A stretch of DNA of 64,000 nt from an uncultured Mycoplasmatota bacterium (lineage in GTDB: Bacteria > Bacillota_I > Bacilli_A > RF39 > UBA660). The first letter of the stretch is position 1, and each line of letters starts with the position of its first letter. A program made the position numbers and the translations under genes. Where the stretch lies: positions 1-64,000 of the forward strand of contig CAOJEH010000003.1 in the NCBI GenBank assembly GCA_948434005.1. The letters run 5' to 3'. Under the pieces are notes generated by a model. That model was not told where the DNA came from and did no database searches. It was given only the letters and a program-made list of their open reading frames with translations. Positions 9,176 through 59,086 of this stretch are shown here, piece after piece.

Positions 9176-11794
9176 CTACTTTGCTTCATACCAATCATTA
9201 CCAAGTTCTATATCAACTTTAAGTGGTACTTCTAATTTATATGTATTTTCCATTATATCTTTTACTATTTCTTTTACTTTATCTAACTCATCTTTATAGA
9301 CATTGAATACCAATTCATCGTGTACTTGAATAAGCATTTTACTTTTTAGACCTAATTCCATAAACTTATCATGTATTTCTATCATTGCTTTTTTTAATAT
9401 ATCTGCTGAACTCCCCTGAACAGGAGTATTAAGCGCAATTCTCTCACCCATACTTCGAACCATATAATTCTTACTTTTTAATTCTTCAATAACTCTTGTT
9501 CTATTCATTAATGTTTTTACATATCCATTTTTATAAGCTTCTTGTTTTTCTTGTTCCATATATTCTCTTATACCAGGATATGTTTCTAAATAATTATCAA
9601 TAAAACTTTTAGCAGTTTTAATATCAATTCCTAAATCCTCTGATAAACCAAAACTACTTATACCATATATAATTCCAAAGTTAACAGCTTTTGCAGTTCT
9701 CCTCATTTCTTTATCCACTTGATCTAAACTAACATGATAAATATCACTAGCAGTTTGAGTATGAATATCTATTCCTTTTTTAAATGCTTCTATTAAGTTA
9801 GTAGCATTTGCCATAGCTGCAAATATACGCAATTCTACTTGTGAATAATCACTAGATAAAATAACAGAATCCTCATCAGGTATAAAAGCTTTTCTTATCA
9901 ATCTAGAGTATTCATCTCTTACAGGTATATTTTGAAGATTTGGACTAACACTTGAAAGCCTTCCTGTTCTTGTTAAAGTTTGGGTAAATATGGTATGTAT
10001 GCGTCCATCTTTTCTTATTTCATTTTTTAAACCAACAGCATAATTTGTATATAGTTTTGATATAGTTCTATAATCTAATATCATATTAACTATAGGATGT
10101 AGGTCAATGATTTTGTCTAATATCTCTTTACTAGTTGAATATTTATTATCTTTAACTTTTTTTGGATATTTAATTTCTAGCTTTTCAAATAGTACTTCAC
10201 CTAATTGTTTTGGAGACATGATATTAAATTCACAACCAGCCGAAGTATAAATTTCTTGTTCCTTTTCTTTCAGCTTAATAGCTAAATTATTACTAATTTC
10301 ATCTAAATAATCACCATTTACTTTTATACCTTCCATTTCCATATCAGCTAAAACATAGGATAGAGGCATTTCTATATCTTCGAATAGGTTTAATTCATCC
10401 TCTTTTTCTAAACTTTTTAAGATATCATCTTTTACTTCATAAATAAATTTTGCTCTTTCTACTATCTCCTTTTTTAATATTTCAAATTCTGGCACTTTTG
10501 GTTTTTTTAATGTTCCAAATAAATCTTCATAACTAGTGAAATCATACGATAAAAACTTTGCTAAATAACTAATATCATCTTTAACAGTATAATTTAATAA
10601 ATATGCTGCTATCATAAGATCAAAGGTAGTGTTTTTAATTTTTAATCCTAAATTATTTAGAGATACAATATTCTTTTTATTATCATAAGTACACTTATTA
10701 TTGATTGATAAAAATATATCCTTATTCTTTATAATATCTTCTTTTGGTATAAAGTATCCATAACTTCCATCATATAATCCTATCCCAATAATTTCACCTT
10801 TACTATAATTATCCCCTACTATTTCAATATATATTGAATACTCTTTATTAATATCAAACTCTTCTATATCTTTTATTATTAATTCTTTTTTCTCTTTCTT
10901 TTCTTCCACTTCTTCTTTTATTTCTTCTACTTCAAAATCTAATTTTCTAAGCAATGAATTAAACTCTAACTCTTTTAATATTTTTATATATTCTTCTCTA
11001 TTACATCCAGTATATTTTAAATCTTCTAAAGTGAAATCTAATTTTACATCCCTATAAATAGTTGCTAAATCATAGCTCATATAGGCATTTTCCTTATCTT
11101 GTTCTAATTTTTCTTTAGTTTTACCTGTAATATTATCAATATTTTTATATAAGTTATCTAGGCTTTCATATTTAGAAAGTAAATTGATAGCAGTTTTTTC
11201 TCCAATTCCTCTAACCCCAGGTATAGCATCACTAGGATCTCCCATAAGTGCTTTTAGATCTATCATTCTAATAGGCTCAACTTTATAAGTATTATAAAAT
11301 TCATCTCTATCCATTCTAATAAATCCACTTTGTTTTAGAAGTTTAACATCAACTTCATCACTTATTAATTGAAGTAAGTCTTTATCACTACTTACAATTG
11401 TTGCAATAAACTCATCTTCATTATCAACTACTTTACTAACTGTACCAATAATATCATCAGCCTCGTAGTTATCTATCTCATAATGTCTAATACCCATTGC
11501 ATCTAACACTTCTTTAGCTTTAGGAAATTGCAATCTAAGTTCATCAGGCATTTCTTTTCTACCAGCCTTGTAGGAATCGTATTTATCATGTCTAAAGGTT
11601 TTTCCTTTATCAAATGCAACCAATATATAGCTCGGATTTTCTTCTTTCATAATTTTATTAATCATATTAATAAAACCGTATAAAGCATTAGTAGGGAAAC
11701 CCTTAGAATTTCTCATAATAACGCCCTGATATGCTGTTGCAAAATAACTTCTAAATAATAAATTATTTCCATCAACTAGTATTACTTTTTTCAT
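9176..11794 (-). CDS. polA: DNA polymerase I
   Basis: 872 residues from the ATG at 11794; an in-frame GTG at 11803 overlaps the ribosome-binding site AGGTGA and is less likely. The 5'-3' exonuclease domain (about 1-290) has VDGNNLLFRSY, the EADD metal-binding cluster and a helix-hairpin-helix. The middle 3'-5' exonuclease-like domain lacks the D-x-E proofreading motif (IYIEIVGDN occupies that place), as in Bacillus enzymes, so proofreading is predicted to be lost. The polymerase domain is complete: motif A DYSQVELR, motif B RRTAKAVNFGIIYG and motif C QVHDELV. It functions in Okazaki-fragment maturation and repair. It is preceded, in the same direction and without a visible terminator, by an SOS-type small gene. 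Confidence 0.97.
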   Translation of the reverse strand: MKKVILVDGNNLLFRSYFATAYQGVIMRNSKGFPTNALYGFINMINKIMKEENPSYILVAFDKGKTFRHDKYDSYKAGRKEMPDELRLQFPKAKEVLDAMGIRHYEIDNYEADDIIGTVSKVVDNEDEFIATIVSSDKDLLQLISDEVDVKLLKQSGFIRMDRDEFYNTYKVEPIRMIDLKALMGDPSDAIPGVRGIGEKTAINLLSKYESLDNLYKNIDNITGKTKEKLEQDKENAYMSYDLATIYRDVKLDFTLEDLKYTGCNREEYIKILKELEFNSLLRKLDFEVEEIKEEVEEKKEKKELIIKDIEEFDINKEYSIYIEIVGDNYSKGEIIGIGLYDGSYGYFIPKEDIIKNKDIFLSINNKCTYDNKKNIVSLNNLGLKIKNTTFDLMIAAYLLNYTVKDDISYLAKFLSYDFTSYEDLFGTLKKPKVPEFEILKKEIVERAKFIYEVKDDILKSLEKEDELNLFEDIEMPLSYVLADMEMEGIKVNGDYLDEISNNLAIKLKEKEQEIYTSAGCEFNIMSPKQLGEVLFEKLEIKYPKKVKDNKYSTSKEILDKIIDLHPIVNMILDYRTISKLYTNYAVGLKNEIRKDGRIHTIFTQTLTRTGRLSSVSPNLQNIPVRDEYSRLIRKAFIPDEDSVILSSDYSQVELRIFAAMANATNLIEAFKKGIDIHTQTASDIYHVSLDQVDKEMRRTAKAVNFGIIYGISSFGLSEDLGIDIKTAKSFIDNYLETYPGIREYMEQEKQEAYKNGYVKTLMNRTRVIEELKSKNYMVRSMGERIALNTPVQGSSADILKKAMIEIHDKFMELGLKSKMLIQVHDELVFNVYKDELDKVKEIVKDIMENTYKLEVPLKVDIELGNDWYEAK

Positions 11795-11812
11795 ATTAAT
11801 CACCTAGTAACT

Positions 11813-11818
11813 ATTATA
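11813..11818 (-). promoter_or_regulatory. Possible extended -10 promoter of polA
   Basis: TGTTATAAT on the minus strand, 18 bases before the polA ATG, without a convincing -35. It may let polA be transcribed independently of the upstream LexA-type promoter. Confidence 0.4.
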
Positions 11819-11835
11819 ACATAAACTTAGAAATT

Positions 11836-11991
11836 TTACTTTGCTAAATTAATAGATAATGATGTATTTGTATTTCTAAAGTCATTAGAGCTTTCTAATT
11901 CTTTAACTCTATTAGTTACCATAAATGTACACATAACTGCTACTGTATATATTGTTAGAACGACTAACCCCTTTCTTATTATCTTTTTCAT
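11836..11991 (-). CDS. Small single-pass membrane protein, predicted SOS-induced (YneA/SosA-position analogue)
   Basis: 51 residues from the ATG at 11991, chosen because AAAGGAG lies 9 bases upstream and because an upstream ATG at 12033 would precede the predicted transcription start. The protein has a basic N-terminus (MKKIIRKG), one hydrophobic helix (about 8-26), then a short polar tail of about 25 residues rich in Asn and Ser, presumably outside the cell. It is transcribed divergently from lexA from a promoter whose spacer contains a LexA-type operator. YneA (Bacillus) and SosA (Staphylococcus) occupy the same position and block division during the SOS response. YneA carries a LysM domain, which this protein lacks. 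I infer a damage-induced division inhibitor or membrane peptide; sequence homology is not evident. Confidence 0.72.
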   Translation of the reverse strand: MKKIIRKGLVVLTIYTVAVMCTFMVTNRVKELESSNDFRNTNTSLSINLAK

Positions 11992-12017
11992 AACACATCT
12001 CTCCTTTCTGTAATTTA

Positions 12018-12046
12018 ACTTTACTACAAACACTAGTTCGAGTCAA
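12018..12046 (-). promoter_or_regulatory. SOS promoter of the small membrane-protein gene
   Basis: -35 TTGACT (12046-12041), exactly 17-base spacer, -10 TAAAGT (12023-12018). The LexA-type operator at 12027-12040 occupies the spacer, the expected arrangement for tight LexA repression. Confidence 0.75.
12027..12040. promoter_or_regulatory. LexA operator 1 (SOS box)
   Basis: 14-base inverted repeat, CGAACTAGTGTTTG on the minus strand, which fits the Gram-positive LexA pattern CGAAC-4-GTTYG. It is placed between the -35 and -10 of the small membrane-protein gene. Confidence 0.8.
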
Positions 12047-12055
12047 TATCTTTTT

Positions 12056-12069
12056 GAAACATTTGTTTG
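12056..12069. promoter_or_regulatory. LexA operator 2 (weaker SOS box) at the lexA promoter
   Basis: GAAACATTTGTTTG keeps the AAC-4-GTT core and the GTTTG half site, with a degenerate left half. It overlaps the lexA -35 box, consistent with autorepression. Confidence 0.55.
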
Positions 12070-12095
12070 ACATTTTACATATGTAGTGTTAAACT
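12067..12095 (+). promoter_or_regulatory. lexA promoter
   Basis: -35 TTGACA (12067-12072), 17-base spacer containing the palindrome TACATATGTA, -10 TAAACT (12090-12095). Transcription would start near 12102, so the ATG at 12098 cannot be the start and the one at 12116 is favoured. Confidence 0.7.
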
Positions 12096-12115
12096 AGATG
12101 TATAAGGAGGGAATT

Positions 12116-12733
12116 ATGGAGAAATTAACAAATAGACAAGCTACAATTTTAGATGTTTTAAAAAAGTTAATAGCCAAGAAAGGATATCCACCTACTGTTA
12201 GAGAAATTGGTAAAGAAGCTGGTCTTAGTTCTACTGCTACTACTCAGTTTCATTTAACTAAGTTAGAAGAAAAAGGATATATAAAAAAAGATAATAGTAA
12301 AAATAGGACTATTGAGATTTTAGTACCTAATGAATATATAGAAACAAAAGAAAATATAGTTCAAGTTCCTCTTCTTGGGAAAGTAACAGCAGGTACCCCT
12401 ATTGAAGCTATTGAAATGCCCAATGAATATTTTTCACTACCAACTGAACTAATAAGCAGTAAAAATGATATATTCACTTTAAAAGTAAGTGGTGAATCAA
12501 TGATTAATGTAGGAATATATGATGGTGATATCTTGATTGTTGAAAGATGTAATACTGCTAAAAATGGTGATACAGTAGTAGCTATGAATGCTGATAACGA
12601 AGCTACAGTTAAAACATTTTATAAAGAAAATGGATATTTTAGATTACAACCTGAAAATGATACTATGGAGCCTATTATTTTAGATCAAGTTACTATTCTT
12701 GGTAAAGCTATTGGATTATATAGAAAATTTTAA
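12116..12733 (+). CDS. lexA: SOS repressor LexA
   Basis: 205 residues from ATG 12116, which has AAGGAGGG 5 bases upstream. An N-terminal winged helix-turn-helix (about 1-65; PTVREIG, SSTATTQFHLTKLEEKGYI) binds operator DNA. The C-terminal S24 domain has the self-cleavage site A92-G93 (VTAGTP), catalytic Ser128 (SGESM) and Lys166 (ATVKTF), all intact. It represses damage-response genes until RecA filaments trigger its cleavage. It is divergent from a 51-residue membrane-protein gene, and two operator-like sites lie between them. A bidirectional terminator separates it from convergent murI. Confidence 0.97.
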   Translation: MEKLTNRQATILDVLKKLIAKKGYPPTVREIGKEAGLSSTATTQFHLTKLEEKGYIKKDNSKNRTIEILVPNEYIETKENIVQVPLLGKVTAGTPIEAIEMPNEYFSLPTELISSKNDIFTLKVSGESMINVGIYDGDILIVERCNTAKNGDTVVAMNADNEATVKTFYKENGYFRLQPENDTMEPIILDQVTILGKAIGLYRKF

Positions 12734-12738
12734 AAAAT

Positions 12739-12790
12739 AAAAAGAAGGATTAAGATGCTTATAAAGATTAATTACTTAATTCTTCTTTTT
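12739..12790. terminator. Bidirectional terminator between lexA and murI
   Basis: Sixteen-base-pair stem (AAAAAGAAGGATTAAG with CTTAATTCTTCTTTTT, one G-U pair) with a 20-base loop. A and T runs on both flanks make it able to act in both directions between the convergent genes. Confidence 0.75.
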
Positions 12791-12794
12791 TTAT

Positions 12795-13541
12795 TTAATT
12801 ATTTAAAATATCATAACTTCTATCTATCAAATCTTTAGATTTATTATTTTCTATTACTATTTTTCCTTTACTTTCTGATTTATTTAATAAATTATTATTT
12901 ACTAATTGATTTTTGACTTCTTTTGCTACACCAATACAGCCATCTAATAATACTGTATTTGGTAAAACTTTTTGTATCTCATTTTTTATTAATGAATAAT
13001 GAGTACATCCTAATATTAAAGAATCCGCGTTTTGATATGGTGATAAAATCTCTAATAATAAATCATTTATTTTTTTATTATCACCTTCATCAATAAGATT
13101 AGCTAGATTTTTACCAGATGCTAAAGTAATTTTTTGACTATGATTATTATAAGTATTAATTAACTCTGAAACTCTTTTTGAATTGATTGTATAATTAGTT
13201 GCTAAAACAAGTGTATCTTTATAATCATTGTCATATGCTATTTTAATAGCAGGAACTGTTCCTACAAAAATTGTATTTTTATATTTTTCTTTTAATTTTT
13301 TCATACATGAAGTAGTTGCAGTATTACAAGCAATTACGATTATTTTACAATTATTTTTTAATAAGTATTCAACAATATTAGAAGTAATTTCAAAAAGTTC
13401 ATCATCGCTTTTTTCTCCATATGGATTATTAATACTATCCTCATAAAATAAATAATCTTCATTAGGTAGTATAGAAAGTAATTCCTTTAATATTGATAAA
13501 CCGCCTAGTCCAGAATCAAATATACCTATTTTATCATTCAT
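12795..13541 (-). CDS. murI: Glutamate racemase
   Basis: Makes D-glutamate for peptidoglycan stem peptides. 248 residues, slightly short for the family. FDSGLGG at residues 8-14, catalytic Cys72 in ACNTAT, second catalytic Cys179 with His181 in LGCTHY, and PYGEKS for substrate binding. The TAAGGAGAAGG ribosome-binding site is strong. It lies 18 bases after murE in the same direction, so the two wall-precursor genes form a small operon, separate from the rest of the mur genes in this window. Confidence 0.96.
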   Translation of the reverse strand: MNDKIGIFDSGLGGLSILKELLSILPNEDYLFYEDSINNPYGEKSDDELFEITSNIVEYLLKNNCKIIVIACNTATTSCMKKLKEKYKNTIFVGTVPAIKIAYDNDYKDTLVLATNYTINSKRVSELINTYNNHSQKITLASGKNLANLIDEGDNKKINDLLLEILSPYQNADSLILGCTHYSLIKNEIQKVLPNTVLLDGCIGVAKEVKNQLVNNNLLNKSESKGKIVIENNKSKDLIDRSYDILNN

Positions 13542-29268: not shown

Positions 29269-29877
29269 TTAATCATTAAAGTTTTGATCACTTTGGATAG
29301 CTTCTATTTTTACTTTACCATGGAAGTGTGTTCCCATAATATCACTTTTTGCATCACTCTTTATCCATAACTTTAGTGAAAATGATTTCGACTCACCAAC
29401 ATCTAAAGTGCCTTCATCTAACAAACCATTAGTTGCACTTAATATATTAGTATTATATGAATTATTATCTATATTTTTAGATAAGTATTTTATATTTGAT
29501 AAATTCATCTTATTTTTTTCACAATTATCCTTTTTATATGAATTAGAATCCTCTACTAAATAAAGTCTATAGTTGGCAGCTATTTTTCCTACATTCTTAA
29601 CTTCAAATGTATATGGTTCTATTAACTTACCTTGTTCATCAGTTACAGGTAGACTATTTTTTAATGAAATCTTATTTTCTTCATTTTGAAATTTTATACT
29701 TAAATTTGCTGTAGTAATTTGATTTATCTTCTTACCACCTATAAATTGTGTCCAAGCTGCATAACTTATACTTATTATACATATTAAAATACTAAAGCAT
29801 AGTATAATTAAACCTAATCTATTTTCCTTTTTTATCTCTTTTGTACTATCCTGTTTATTATGTATATCTTTTTTCAT
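29269..29877 (-). CDS. Membrane-anchored beta-sandwich protein, TasA/camelysin-like organisation (copy 1)
   Basis: 202 residues: a charged cytoplasmic tail (1-20), one membrane helix (about 21-42) ending in SYAAWTQF, then an extracellular beta-rich domain. It starts with ITTANLSIKF, contains LPVTDEQGKLIEPYTFEVKN and ends KLWIKS...GTHFHGKVKIEA. The A-W-x-x-F after the helix and the FxxKN...K...YxL pattern resemble SipW-dependent TasA/camelysin-type surface proteins; this is a weak resemblance, not a firm family call. The next gene upstream is a clear paralogue. It has its own promoter (29904-29932) and lies upstream of murG. Confidence 0.65.
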   Translation of the reverse strand: MKKDIHNKQDSTKEIKKENRLGLIILCFSILICIISISYAAWTQFIGGKKINQITTANLSIKFQNEENKISLKNSLPVTDEQGKLIEPYTFEVKNVGKIAANYRLYLVEDSNSYKKDNCEKNKMNLSNIKYLSKNIDNNSYNTNILSATNGLLDEGTLDVGESKSFSLKLWIKSDAKSDIMGTHFHGKVKIEAIQSDQNFND

Positions 29878-29903
29878 GATTACACTTCCCTTATATATCT
29901 TAA

Positions 29904-29932
29904 ATTATATATAAAATTATCTGTTTTGTAAA
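29904..29932 (-). promoter_or_regulatory. Promoter of beta-sandwich gene copy 1 (and perhaps murG)
   Basis: -35 TTTACA (29932-29927), 17-base spacer, -10 TATAAT (29909-29904), directly after the terminator of the preceding gene. Confidence 0.65.
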
Positions 29933-29936
29933 TAAA

Positions 29937-29965
29937 AACAACAACTAATTTATTTAATTGTTGTT
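29937..29965 (-). terminator. Terminator of beta-sandwich gene copy 2
   Basis: Stem AACAACAATTAA with TTAGTTGTTGTT (one wobble) and a T-rich tail. It begins inside the last codons of the gene, with the TAA stop in the loop. Confidence 0.7.
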
Positions 29966-30528
29966 GCTACCAAAGCACCCTCATCTTCTACTTTTATAAT
30001 GCCATGATAATGCATTTTAGTACCTGTATTTTGAGTAGATTTATTACTAATCCAAAATCTAACTGTATAATTTTCTTCTCTATTCGCTTTAATTATTCTA
30101 TTTATAACATTTCCATTTATTAAATCACTTAGGTTATAAATATTATTTTTTTCTCTATCATTATGAATAGATAATTTTATTATATTTTTAGGAATCTTAT
30201 ATTTATTACATTTATCACTTTTATATAATTCATCATTATCATTTATATTTATGGAATATTTTATACTTTTATTAGTATTATTTTTTATTGTAAAAGTATA
30301 AGCCTTTGAAGATAAACCTACTGAGTCGGTTACAGGAGTATGTCTCGTAATATTAATTTGATCTCCATTTTTTTCGTGAAAGGTAACATCTAGAGTATCT
30401 GTATTATAATCAGTACTCTCCTTATCACTAAATTTATAATATATATTATAAGTTGCCACTAAAGCAAATGTTAATATTATAACAATTATTAGAATTTCTT
30501 TTTTTCTATATTTAATACTATTTAACAT
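29950..30528 (-). CDS. Membrane-anchored beta-sandwich protein (copy 2)
   Basis: 192 residues from ATG 30528 (AGAGGTG upstream; the ATG at 30552 is unsupported). One membrane helix (about 9-28), then an extracellular domain paralogous to the adjacent copy 1: TPVTDSVGLSSKAYTFTIKN versus LPVTDEQG...YTFEVKN, a shared YKSDKCNKYKIP/YKKDNCEKNKM segment, RFWISN versus KLWIKS, and the terminal GTKMHYHGIIKVED versus GTHFHGKVKIEA. Function unknown. The helix is followed by TYNIYYKF rather than the A-W pattern of copy 1. Tandem duplication is evident. It could be a structural surface protein or a sensor. Confidence 0.62.
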   Translation of the reverse strand: MLNSIKYRKKEILIIVIILTFALVATYNIYYKFSDKESTDYNTDTLDVTFHEKNGDQINITRHTPVTDSVGLSSKAYTFTIKNNTNKSIKYSININDNDELYKSDKCNKYKIPKNIIKLSIHNDREKNNIYNLSDLINGNVINRIIKANREENYTVRFWISNKSTQNTGTKMHYHGIIKVEDEGALVATTIK

Positions 30529-30608
30529 AATTACACCTCTTCTATATAACACCAGTTATAAACTAATATATAGTTAGTATATCATATATTCAGGGAAAAA
30601 TGATAAAT

Positions 30609-32103: not shown

Positions 32104-33189
32104 TTACAAATTTCTACTAATATTTAAAATTATTCCTATACTACACATTGTTATTAATAAACTAGATCCTCCATAACTTAAAAATGGAAGAGTTACTCCC
32201 GTTACTGGTATCATTCCAATAACTACCATTAAATTCATTAAAGTTTGAAAAGCTAGTTGAAACATCATACCAAAAGCTAAGTACTTAGAAAAATGATCTT
32301 TTGCTTTTAATGCTATTCTTAATCCTCTATATATAGCAATTGAAAATAATCCTACTACTATAATTACACCCATTATTCCAAATTCTTCTGATATTATTGA
32401 AAATATAAAATCTGTTTGTGGTTCTGGTAAATAAAAATGTTTTTGAATAGAATTTTGAAATCCCATACCTAATAATCCACCTGGACCTATTGCATATAAG
32501 CTTTGAATTATTTGAAATCCCGTACCTAAAGGATCATTCCATGGATTTATAAATGAAGTTATTCTATCCATTCTATATGGGGCGATTAGTATTAGTATCA
32601 CTATACCTAGTATTCCTATAATTCCTCCACCTATAAAGAATTTCATATTAACACCTGCGATAAATAAAAGTGAAATTATAGAAACTACTAAAATTACTCC
32701 TGTACCTAAGTCTGGCTGTAACATAATAAGACCGAAAAAAATAAATAGTATAAAAAGAATTGGAAAAACTCCTTGTTTATAACTTTTTATAAATTTATTA
32801 CTATTAGCTAAATATTTACTGGTAAATATTATCATTCCTAGTTTAGCGGCTTCACTTGGTTGAATTCCAAATGAACCTATTCCAAACCAACTACGGCTAC
32901 CATTTCTAATACTACCTATTCCAGGTATTGCTACTAAAACTAGTAATATAAAACATATTAAGAGAATTTTATTAGCTTTTTTATAGTATAAATTATAATC
33001 TATTTTTGATATAAATATCATTAAGAAGACTCCTATTACTGCAAAAATAAGCTGTCTTTTTATATAATAAAAACTATCATTAAATTTATATTCTGCCCAA
33101 ATTGATGATGCTGAATATATCATAATTATTCCAAATACTATTAGTAAAATAACTGCACTAAAAAGGAAAATATCTACTTTCTTTTTCAT
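32104..33189 (-). CDS. ftsW: Lipid II polymerase FtsW (SEDS family)
   Basis: 361 residues with about ten membrane helices. SEDS hallmarks: GIQPSEAAKLGMI, LQPDLGTG, the extracellular loop HFYLPEPQTDFIFSIISEEFG containing the catalytic Asp, and VTLPFLSYGGSSL near the C-terminus. The HFYLPEPQTDF form and PFLSYGGSS favour FtsW/SpoVE over RodA. It polymerises glycan strands together with a class B PBP. AGGTGAT precedes the start. It stands apart from murG and mraY, flanked by the lysozyme-like gene and a divergent ZIP transporter. Confidence 0.92.
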   Translation of the reverse strand: MKKKVDIFLFSAVILLIVFGIIMIYSASSIWAEYKFNDSFYYIKRQLIFAVIGVFLMIFISKIDYNLYYKKANKILLICFILLVLVAIPGIGSIRNGSRSWFGIGSFGIQPSEAAKLGMIIFTSKYLANSNKFIKSYKQGVFPILFILFIFFGLIMLQPDLGTGVILVVSIISLLFIAGVNMKFFIGGGIIGILGIVILILIAPYRMDRITSFINPWNDPLGTGFQIIQSLYAIGPGGLLGMGFQNSIQKHFYLPEPQTDFIFSIISEEFGIMGVIIVVGLFSIAIYRGLRIALKAKDHFSKYLAFGMMFQLAFQTLMNLMVVIGMIPVTGVTLPFLSYGGSSLLITMCSIGIILNISRNL

Positions 33190-56629: not shown

Positions 56630-58768
56630 CTAACTATTAAATTTTGGACTTAATGTAAGTGTTATTTCCATACCATTTGCTATTTCGGTGTTTTCTCCGA
56701 TATTTTGACTATTTACATAACCACTACCTTCTAATTTTACTTTTAATCCTAACATTTCCAAAATAGTTTTAGCCTCTTTACTAGATAGACCTACTACGTT
56801 TGGAACTGTATATTTAGTTGCATTAGTTATCAAATATACGGTATCCTTATTAGTTACTTTTACATTCTTTTCAGGATATTGTTTAATTATTTTATTCCCA
56901 TCACCATATATTTTATAATTCATTGAATTATTTGTAAGAGTTGTTTTTACTTTATCTATATCCTTATTTATAAATGAGGGTAATTTATATTCTATAATAT
57001 TATCTGTTATAGTTGTTTTCTCTGTTCCTAAGTATTTTCCCACATTAACAACAACTTCTTTTACAGCATTTGATATTGGTTTTTGACTTCCTCCTGCAGG
57101 TCTTTTTACTGATGCATATACAATTATTTGTGGATTACTTTTTGGGTATATTCCTGCGAATGAAGATATTATATCTGCTTTACCAGTTAGATATCCACCA
57201 CTTTTTTCATTTGCAATTTGAGCAGTACCTGTCTTACCTATAAGTTCATGACTATCAATTCTATAACCACTACCAGTATATCCTACCTCATTAACTGTAG
57301 TATCCATAAGTGATATCATTTTTTCTACTGTAGCAGTACTTGCAACTCTTTCTATTTTTTCTTTTTTTCCTTTATAGACTACTTCTTTTGTTGCAGGATT
57401 TACCATTCGGTCTATTAGATAAGGCTTTAGTAACATACCATCATTTGTTAGAGGTGTTAAAGCTTGAATATTTTGAATAGCAGTTGTTGTTATACCCTGA
57501 CCAAATCCAGCATTATAAATTTCTGTTTCATATTTAAAATTTAGAAGACCACTCATTTCATTTGGAAGAGGTATTCCTGTTTTATGCCCAAAACCTAATT
57601 TTCTAAAATATTGTCTTAGCATAGCTGAATTCATATGTCTATTTATTAAATTTATGACTCCAACATTACTCGAATATGCATATCCTCTATCATATGAAAT
57701 AACACCCCAACCATTTCTATTCCAATCACCTATTTCAGTACCATCTGATGCACTATATACTCCTGATTTATATGTTTCATTACCATCATAAACTCCATTT
57801 TCTAATGCTGCCATATAGGTAAATGTTTTCATAGTACTACCAGGTTCGTATCCAGTTATTGTATGATCTATATAATCTTTTATTTCTCTTTTATTAGGAT
57901 CAAATGATGGAGAATTTGCCATACCCAAAATAGCTCCTGTTTTGGCATCTGCTACTACCATAGTAAACCAATCATATCCATATTCATTTAAAGATTTATT
58001 CATTGATTGTTCTATAAAAAATTGAACATTACTATCAATAGTTAGATAAATATCTTTTCCTTCAACTGCATCTTCTTTTACTTCTGGAGTATCTACGATT
58101 TTATATCCTCTTAAGTCCTTTTGATAAGTAATAGAACCATCCTTACCTCTTAGGATTTTATCATAGTATTTTTCTATCCCCATCTCACCTACTATATTAT
58201 CTTCTTCATCTTCACTATTTTTAGCATAACCTAATGTATATGATAAAAATTGACCTTTTGGATAATATCTCTTATAACTTTCAATAAAATCGATTCCTGG
58301 AAGATTTAGTGACTCTATTTTATTTTTAACTAGTTCTGATAGGCCTTTTCCTTTACTACCAAATTCTGTTTGATAGGAGTCCTTATTTAACCTTTTCAAA
58401 ATATCTTCTTCACTTATTCCTAAAATGGGTGATAATTCTTTTGCTGTTTTTTCTTTATCAACTACATGTTGAGGATTGTCTTTTTTATCAGTTCTTGCCT
58501 CAGATAAATAAGCAATTATTTTATATGATGCAACATTTATGGCTAATTGTTCATTATCTTTTGAATAAATTGTACCTCTTTTAGCTTCAATAATTTCTTT
58601 TTTTGTAGTTCTTTTACTAGCAAGTTCTTGTAAATTAGTTCCATCTATCTTTTTAGATGTTGATAATTCTAGTACTCTTAGAATCATTATAACAAACAAA
58701 AAAAGAGAAAGTAAAATAACAATCTTGCTATACCTTATTTTATTTCGGGTCTTTTTCTTTCTCTTCAT
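56630..58768 (-). CDS. pbpB: Division-specific class B penicillin-binding protein with two PASTA domains
   Basis: 712 residues from ATG 58768; an in-frame GTG at 58777 overlaps the AGGACGTGA site. One membrane helix (about 14-32), a dimerisation domain (EAKRGTIYSKDNEQLAINV), and a transpeptidase domain with SxxK in EPGSTMKTF (Ser311), SSN in YAYSSNVGV and KTG in IGKTGTAQ. Two C-terminal PASTA domains, the first degenerate (KLPSFINKDIDKV), the second typical (YTVPNVVGLSSKEAKTIL). It cross-links septal peptidoglycan with FtsW. The mraZ-rsmH-ftsL-pbpB order is the conserved start of the dcw cluster. Confidence 0.95.
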   Translation of the reverse strand: MKRKKKTRNKIRYSKIVILLSLFLFVIMILRVLELSTSKKIDGTNLQELASKRTTKKEIIEAKRGTIYSKDNEQLAINVASYKIIAYLSEARTDKKDNPQHVVDKEKTAKELSPILGISEEDILKRLNKDSYQTEFGSKGKGLSELVKNKIESLNLPGIDFIESYKRYYPKGQFLSYTLGYAKNSEDEEDNIVGEMGIEKYYDKILRGKDGSITYQKDLRGYKIVDTPEVKEDAVEGKDIYLTIDSNVQFFIEQSMNKSLNEYGYDWFTMVVADAKTGAILGMANSPSFDPNKREIKDYIDHTITGYEPGSTMKTFTYMAALENGVYDGNETYKSGVYSASDGTEIGDWNRNGWGVISYDRGYAYSSNVGVINLINRHMNSAMLRQYFRKLGFGHKTGIPLPNEMSGLLNFKYETEIYNAGFGQGITTTAIQNIQALTPLTNDGMLLKPYLIDRMVNPATKEVVYKGKKEKIERVASTATVEKMISLMDTTVNEVGYTGSGYRIDSHELIGKTGTAQIANEKSGGYLTGKADIISSFAGIYPKSNPQIIVYASVKRPAGGSQKPISNAVKEVVVNVGKYLGTEKTTITDNIIEYKLPSFINKDIDKVKTTLTNNSMNYKIYGDGNKIIKQYPEKNVKVTNKDTVYLITNATKYTVPNVVGLSSKEAKTILEMLGLKVKLEGSGYVNSQNIGENTEIANGMEITLTLSPKFNS

Positions 58769-58780
58769 TTTTATCACGTC

Positions 58781-59086
58781 CTATTTTTTATCAGAAATTA
58801 TCTTAATGTTATTATTATTATAACTTAATCCCTGCTCTTGTGCAACTTCTTGAACTTTTGTTAATGACGCTAATTCGTCAATTGTCATTGACAACCCTTC
58901 ATTTGTCTTTTCTTGTTCTTCTATTTGCCTTTTTTCTTGTTCTACCTCAAAGTTAACCTTAGCTAATGTAGCTTTAGAAAAAACTATAGATATTGGAGAT
59001 ACTAACAATAGAAAAATTGCGAAAGTGTATATAAACTTTTCAAATTTAGTCATCTTCAATTGTTTTTTTGCCTTCTTTTTTCTCAT
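58781..59086 (-). CDS. ftsL: Cell division protein FtsL
   Basis: 101 residues. A basic cytoplasmic N-terminus (MRKKKAKKQLK), one membrane helix (about 17-37), and an extracellular coiled coil (about 45-85) with heptads of Glu/Gln/Leu. Sequence conservation is low, as usual for FtsL; the assignment rests on size, topology and place between rsmH and pbpB. It pairs with DivIC and DivIB in the divisome. TAGGAGTGAT precedes the start. Confidence 0.88.
   Translation of the reverse strand: MRKKKAKKQLKMTKFEKFIYTFAIFLLLVSPISIVFSKATLAKVNFEVEQEKRQIEEQEKTNEGLSMTIDELASLTKVQEVAQEQGLSYNNNNIKIISDKK

Follow-up and report, generated by a model that had tools for sequence, protein, structure and literature searches.

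A 51-residue membrane protein encoded divergently from lexA, very probably under LexA control, is a candidate division inhibitor in an uncultured gut lineage

Previous studies on Gram-positive bacteria indicate that the slot beside lexA is occupied by an SOS-induced inhibitor of cell division with a single membrane helix (PMC6851548). In Bacillus this is YneA, a protein of ∼103 residues whose membrane helix docks on TM7 of FtsW, blocking septal wall synthesis; the TM helix alone localises without blocking division, and the LysM domain is required (PMC13396833). The staphylococcal SosA (77 residues) has no LysM domain; conserved residues just outside the membrane are needed, and CtpA appears to turn the protein over (PMC6851548). 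DivS of Corynebacterium and ChiZ of Mycobacterium are likewise SOS-controlled, encoded beside lexA and built on one membrane segment, but are actinobacterial, and ChiZ carries LysM (PMC6851548). Models that place SosA, ChiZ and SidA on FtsW are not of high confidence (PMC13396833). How FtsW can be stopped by a protein lacking LysM is a question remaining from the work on SosA and YneA. SidA and DidA of Caulobacter, very small bitopic inhibitors of division whose targets are late divisome proteins, resemble in these respects what is proposed here for the protein beside lexA (partly PMC4211646). They belong to another lineage, to our knowledge neither is encoded beside lexA, and DidA is SOS-independent (PMC4211646).

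The locus lies in a 64,000-nucleotide stretch of DNA that was analysed as a whole (the window). Its small ORF occupies positions 11839–11991 of the minus strand (stop codon 11836–11838) and is oriented divergently from lexA (12116–12733, plus strand; 205 residues; TIGR00498, E 5e-67). It comprises 51 codons from an ATG at 11991, with a ribosome-binding site, AAGGAG (12001–12006, minus strand), 9 nt ahead. The product, MKKIIRKGLVVLTIYTVAVMCTFMVTNRVKELESSNDFRNTNTSLSINLAK, has a basic N-terminus, one hydrophobic helix at approximately residues 9–26, and a polar tail. Given the family alignment, AlphaFold2 models a single helix spanning residues 2–41; mean pLDDT is 87–97 per block up to residue 30 and lower beyond it. 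In this model the helix seems to continue beyond the membrane into a conserved segment. The small frame with one membrane helix and a strong ribosome-binding site, as described in an earlier note on this DNA, is confirmed.

Using LexA as the query and one genome per species, 80 related lexA loci were collected, nearly all from uncultured Bacilli/Tenericutes-type MAGs, Candidatus Onthousia and Scybalousia among them. Conservation of the frame beside lexA, which the earlier note had proposed as a check, is seen at 71 of the 80, each with an intact homologue of 46–62 residues, preceded by a Shine-Dalgarno sequence and divergent from lexA; one extra locus (L075) carries a frameshifted remnant. Pairwise dN/dS ranges from 0.10 to 0.41, and in most pairs the bulk of the differences falls on third codon positions. 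Among 52 divergent members that were aligned, Tyr15, Arg28 and Leu32 are invariant, position 33 is Glu, Asp or Asn in every one, and position 6 is Lys or Arg almost without exception. In the tail, hydrophobic residues predominate at positions 45, 47 and 49 and polar ones alternate with them, a β-strand-like pattern. Conservation within the membrane helix shows no significant helical periodicity (p 0.09–0.32). We conclude that the small ORF is a real gene under selection and not a chance frame.

The gene is absent from ∼10% of the related lexA loci, and a search elsewhere in the genomes of those loci gave no convincing second copy, so that it must be dispensable. Searched with the family profile, 241 genomes of the order yield 80 with a match (E≤0.01), the weakest matches, in long frames, being doubtful. 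This count is probably too low, since among 18 family genomes sampled through lexA alone (the window included) 15 carry a short frame for a one-helix protein at this site, several of these frames being too diverged for the profile. Profile matches outside the family (L147, L149–L153) have no lexA nearby and were taken as chance.

The promoter of the small ORF (12018–12046, minus strand) consists of a −35 element TTGACT (12041–12046), a 17-base spacer and a −10 element TAAAGT (12018–12023) that is weak in the window, several relatives showing TATACT at equal spacing. Within the spacer lies a 14-base LexA-type operator, O2 (CGAACTAGTGTTTG; 12027–12040, minus strand), with one mismatch to CGAAC-N4-GTTCG. 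A second, O1 (GAAACATTTGTTTG; 12056–12069), its centre 29 bp from that of O2, overlaps the −35 element (TTGACA, 12067–12072) of the lexA promoter, TTGACA-17-TAAACT (12067–12095, plus strand). A matrix trained on relatives only ranks O1 (12056) first and O2 (12027) second among all positions of the 64-kb window. An ORF-side operator with at most two mismatches is present at 68 of 72 ORF-bearing loci, against 0.8 expected from dinucleotide shuffles. The promoter and the operator in its spacer are as the earlier note had them; O1 it had overlooked. The best operator match upstream of recA in the same genome, AAAACAATTGTTCG, is 71 nt ahead of the start.

In six loci (L077, L081, L087, L096, L107 and L108) polA abuts lexA; these have neither the small ORF nor a comparable O2, and all six keep an O1-type match. 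Because O2 and the ORF are gained or lost together while O1 is kept, the ORF, its promoter and O2 behave as one module. From these patterns the small ORF is very probably under LexA control.

Outside the window, operators were examined through searches and in short stretches around operator matches. The trained matrix replaced a loose pattern (GAACNNNNGTTY) that was dropped when it gave, genome-wide, 27 matches compared with 38 for its reversed control. A strong LexA-type match in the window's own genome, CAAACATTTGTTCT (17.6 bits; L196, 3647), precedes a short-chain dehydrogenase-like gene by 133 nt. A further LexA-type match, CAAACATAGGTTCG (L195, 1516–1529; G000:C1:285516), sits 70 nt ahead of a SpoVAC-like gene in an apparent spoIIAA/sigF/spoVAC/spoVAD cluster, in a small-genome lineage. 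Matches to the operator pattern recur with identical spacing and in reversed order at G000:C1:271021–294658 and G000:C9:23955–47592, so that a ∼24-kb stretch is seemingly present twice in the assembly.

Comparison with known families sets the small protein apart. No family in Pfam, NCBIfam, PHROG or the PDB covers it; the matches obtained there were weak, involved one to three members each, mostly fell on unrelated membrane segments, and were set aside. LysM is not among the Pfam matches listed, and the members are only 46–62 residues long. None of the 52 family sequences matches the YneA model NF010723 at E≤1, whereas Bacillus YneA, as a positive control, scores 92 bits. Profile alignment with two YneA proteins and comparison with the window's own FtsL revealed no similarity, the phage records held no relative, and the literature searched contains no description of such a family. 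On sequence grounds we regard the protein as a separate, unnamed family, distinct from YneA; SosA was compared by description only. The earlier note's suggestion of a new family in this lineage fits these results. Its minimal analogue without LysM is less special than it seemed, given that SosA and DivS also lack LysM (PMC6851548). The earlier interpretation is partly supported, namely for the conserved frame, the LexA-type operator, the single helix without LysM and the lack of a known family.

With YneA the protein shares the position divergent from lexA, a LexA-type operator, one N-terminal membrane helix and a C-terminus predicted here to lie outside; it differs in lacking both the LysM domain on which YneA function depends and any similarity of sequence. 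With SosA it shares the position beside lexA, the single helix, the absence of LysM and a stretch of conserved residues directly beyond the membrane (PMC6851548), represented here by the invariant Arg28 and Leu32 and by position 33, with the AlphaFold2 model likewise showing one helix that leaves the membrane; it differs in length (46–62 residues compared with 77). These likenesses in gene position, predicted topology and probable regulation could mean that the protein is a true homologue of SosA or YneA that has diverged extremely, lacks or has lost LysM, and is still a division inhibitor. We consider such descent rather unlikely. No homology to YneA is detectable, by profile alignment as by NF010723, which also weighs against the division-inhibitor reading proposed below, and the downstream gene is a recombinase gene for Bacillus yneA but polA here. 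The protein would thus resemble SosA and YneA in every feature that can be checked and yet be filed apart from them, apparently as a clean new family within an expected functional slot, with a proposed mechanism.

The organism possesses the machinery on which such an inhibitor would act. Encoded in the window are FtsZ, FtsL (58781–59086, minus strand), an FtsW/SEDS glycosyltransferase (32104–33189, minus strand), the proposed target, and a PBP2B/FtsI-type transpeptidase (56630–58777, minus strand), the proposed co-target, so that the divisome targets of the YneA type are present here too. FtsA-, DivIB-, MraZ-, MraW- and MraY-like frames were recognised by eye; the genome encodes three SEDS proteins and, elsewhere, a CtpA/Prc protease. 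Two frames for TasA/camelysin-like secreted proteins, also recognised by eye, occupy 29269–30552, where murG and ftsW flank them within the dcw cluster.

Given the SosA-like anatomy, the slot beside lexA, the divisome in the window and CtpA/Prc in the genome, we propose that the small ORF probably encodes the effector of a DNA-damage checkpoint in this lineage, an SOS-induced division inhibitor acting on FtsW/PBP2B. What the sequences show is the gene with its conservation and operators and the set of divisome genes; that LexA binds, that damage induces the protein, how it is oriented, what it targets and that it arrests division we infer, along the following lines. In an undamaged cell LexA would sit on O2 and O1, repressing the small gene and lexA from their divergent promoters. 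On DNA damage, RecA filaments would promote LexA self-cleavage, and the protein of 46–62 residues would be made and inserted into the membrane, leaving its positive N-terminus inside and exposing a short polar tail on the outer face. By its membrane helix it would bind the complex for septal wall synthesis, FtsW/PBP2B, possibly at TM7 of FtsW as YneA does. The juxtamembrane segment, conserved as R-[VI]-x-x-L-[ED], would then keep septal peptidoglycan from being made until proteolysis, plausibly by CtpA/Prc, removes the protein. The reading is weakened by the loci that lack the gene, by the non-significant helical periodicity and by the example of YneA, whose TM helix is insufficient without LysM, so that a protein lacking this domain has to work in another way, which is also presumed of SosA.

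A single hydrophobic helix of similar size under LexA-type control is also what a TisB/DinQ-type peptide, induced by SOS and active on the membrane, would present, and DinQ offers a precedent (PMC3567139); such a peptide would depolarise the membrane and slow growth or induce dormancy, the divisome not being its target. This we judge distinctly improbable. TisB and DinQ of E. coli are SOS-induced small single-helix membrane peptides too, but they are shorter, and these precedents are encoded by type I toxin loci that antisense RNAs regulate (PMC3567139, PMC8309996), whereas no known RNA family in Rfam matches 11300–12900. The ribosome-binding site is strong, strictly invariant aromatic and polar positions lie towards both membrane faces, the outer tail is conserved, and Gram-positive division inhibitors are encoded at this same site beside lexA (PMC6851548).

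Directly downstream of the small ORF is polA, encoding DNA polymerase I (9176–11803, minus strand; N-terminus recognised by eye). In most loci it follows on the same strand within 20–60 bp, and no terminator was found. The small ORF might therefore serve polA, either as a leader peptide or as the gene that opens an SOS-inducible polA operon, its protein aiding repair synthesis or membrane attachment, but we give this very little credence. A −10-like motif of its own precedes polA in 67 of the 72 loci (in the window the extended −10 TGTTATAAT); the ORF is kept where a 1.1-kb gene is interposed (L076, L078, L083) and where polA is absent from the site (L071); and its conservation at the amino-acid level speaks against a mere leader. 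Some SOS transcription may read through into polA, but the small gene can be explained without it. The interposed gene in L078 and L083 encodes a transporter-like membrane protein of ∼400 codons, and that in L076 is Na+/Ca2+ exchanger-like. As for a spurious ORF between two divergent promoters, the frame is indeed short and AT-rich, but the dN/dS values, the invariant residues and the ribosome-binding site conserved over 72 loci already refute it, leaving it a negligible chance.

If the division-inhibitor reading is correct, an uncultured gut lineage gains its DNA-damage checkpoint, and the short list of SOS division inhibitors is extended by an unannotated family. With three invariant residues, it would also be a minimal natural inhibitor for probing LysM-free arrest of the septal synthase FtsW. 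More tentatively, we suggest that SOS division inhibitors of ∼50 residues without a peptidoglycan-binding domain may prevail throughout the lineage, one helix and the motif Y...R-x3-L-[E/D] sufficing to stop the FtsW/PBP2B synthase; the slot beside lexA could then have been filled independently in this Mollicutes-affiliated lineage. In another family of the class (L172, L173 and L176), a different one-helix ORF of 57 residues (for example MFNKICLTIYSYRCLIGIYF...), with no evident similarity to the 51-residue family, is divergent from lexA and represents a second candidate small SOS protein.
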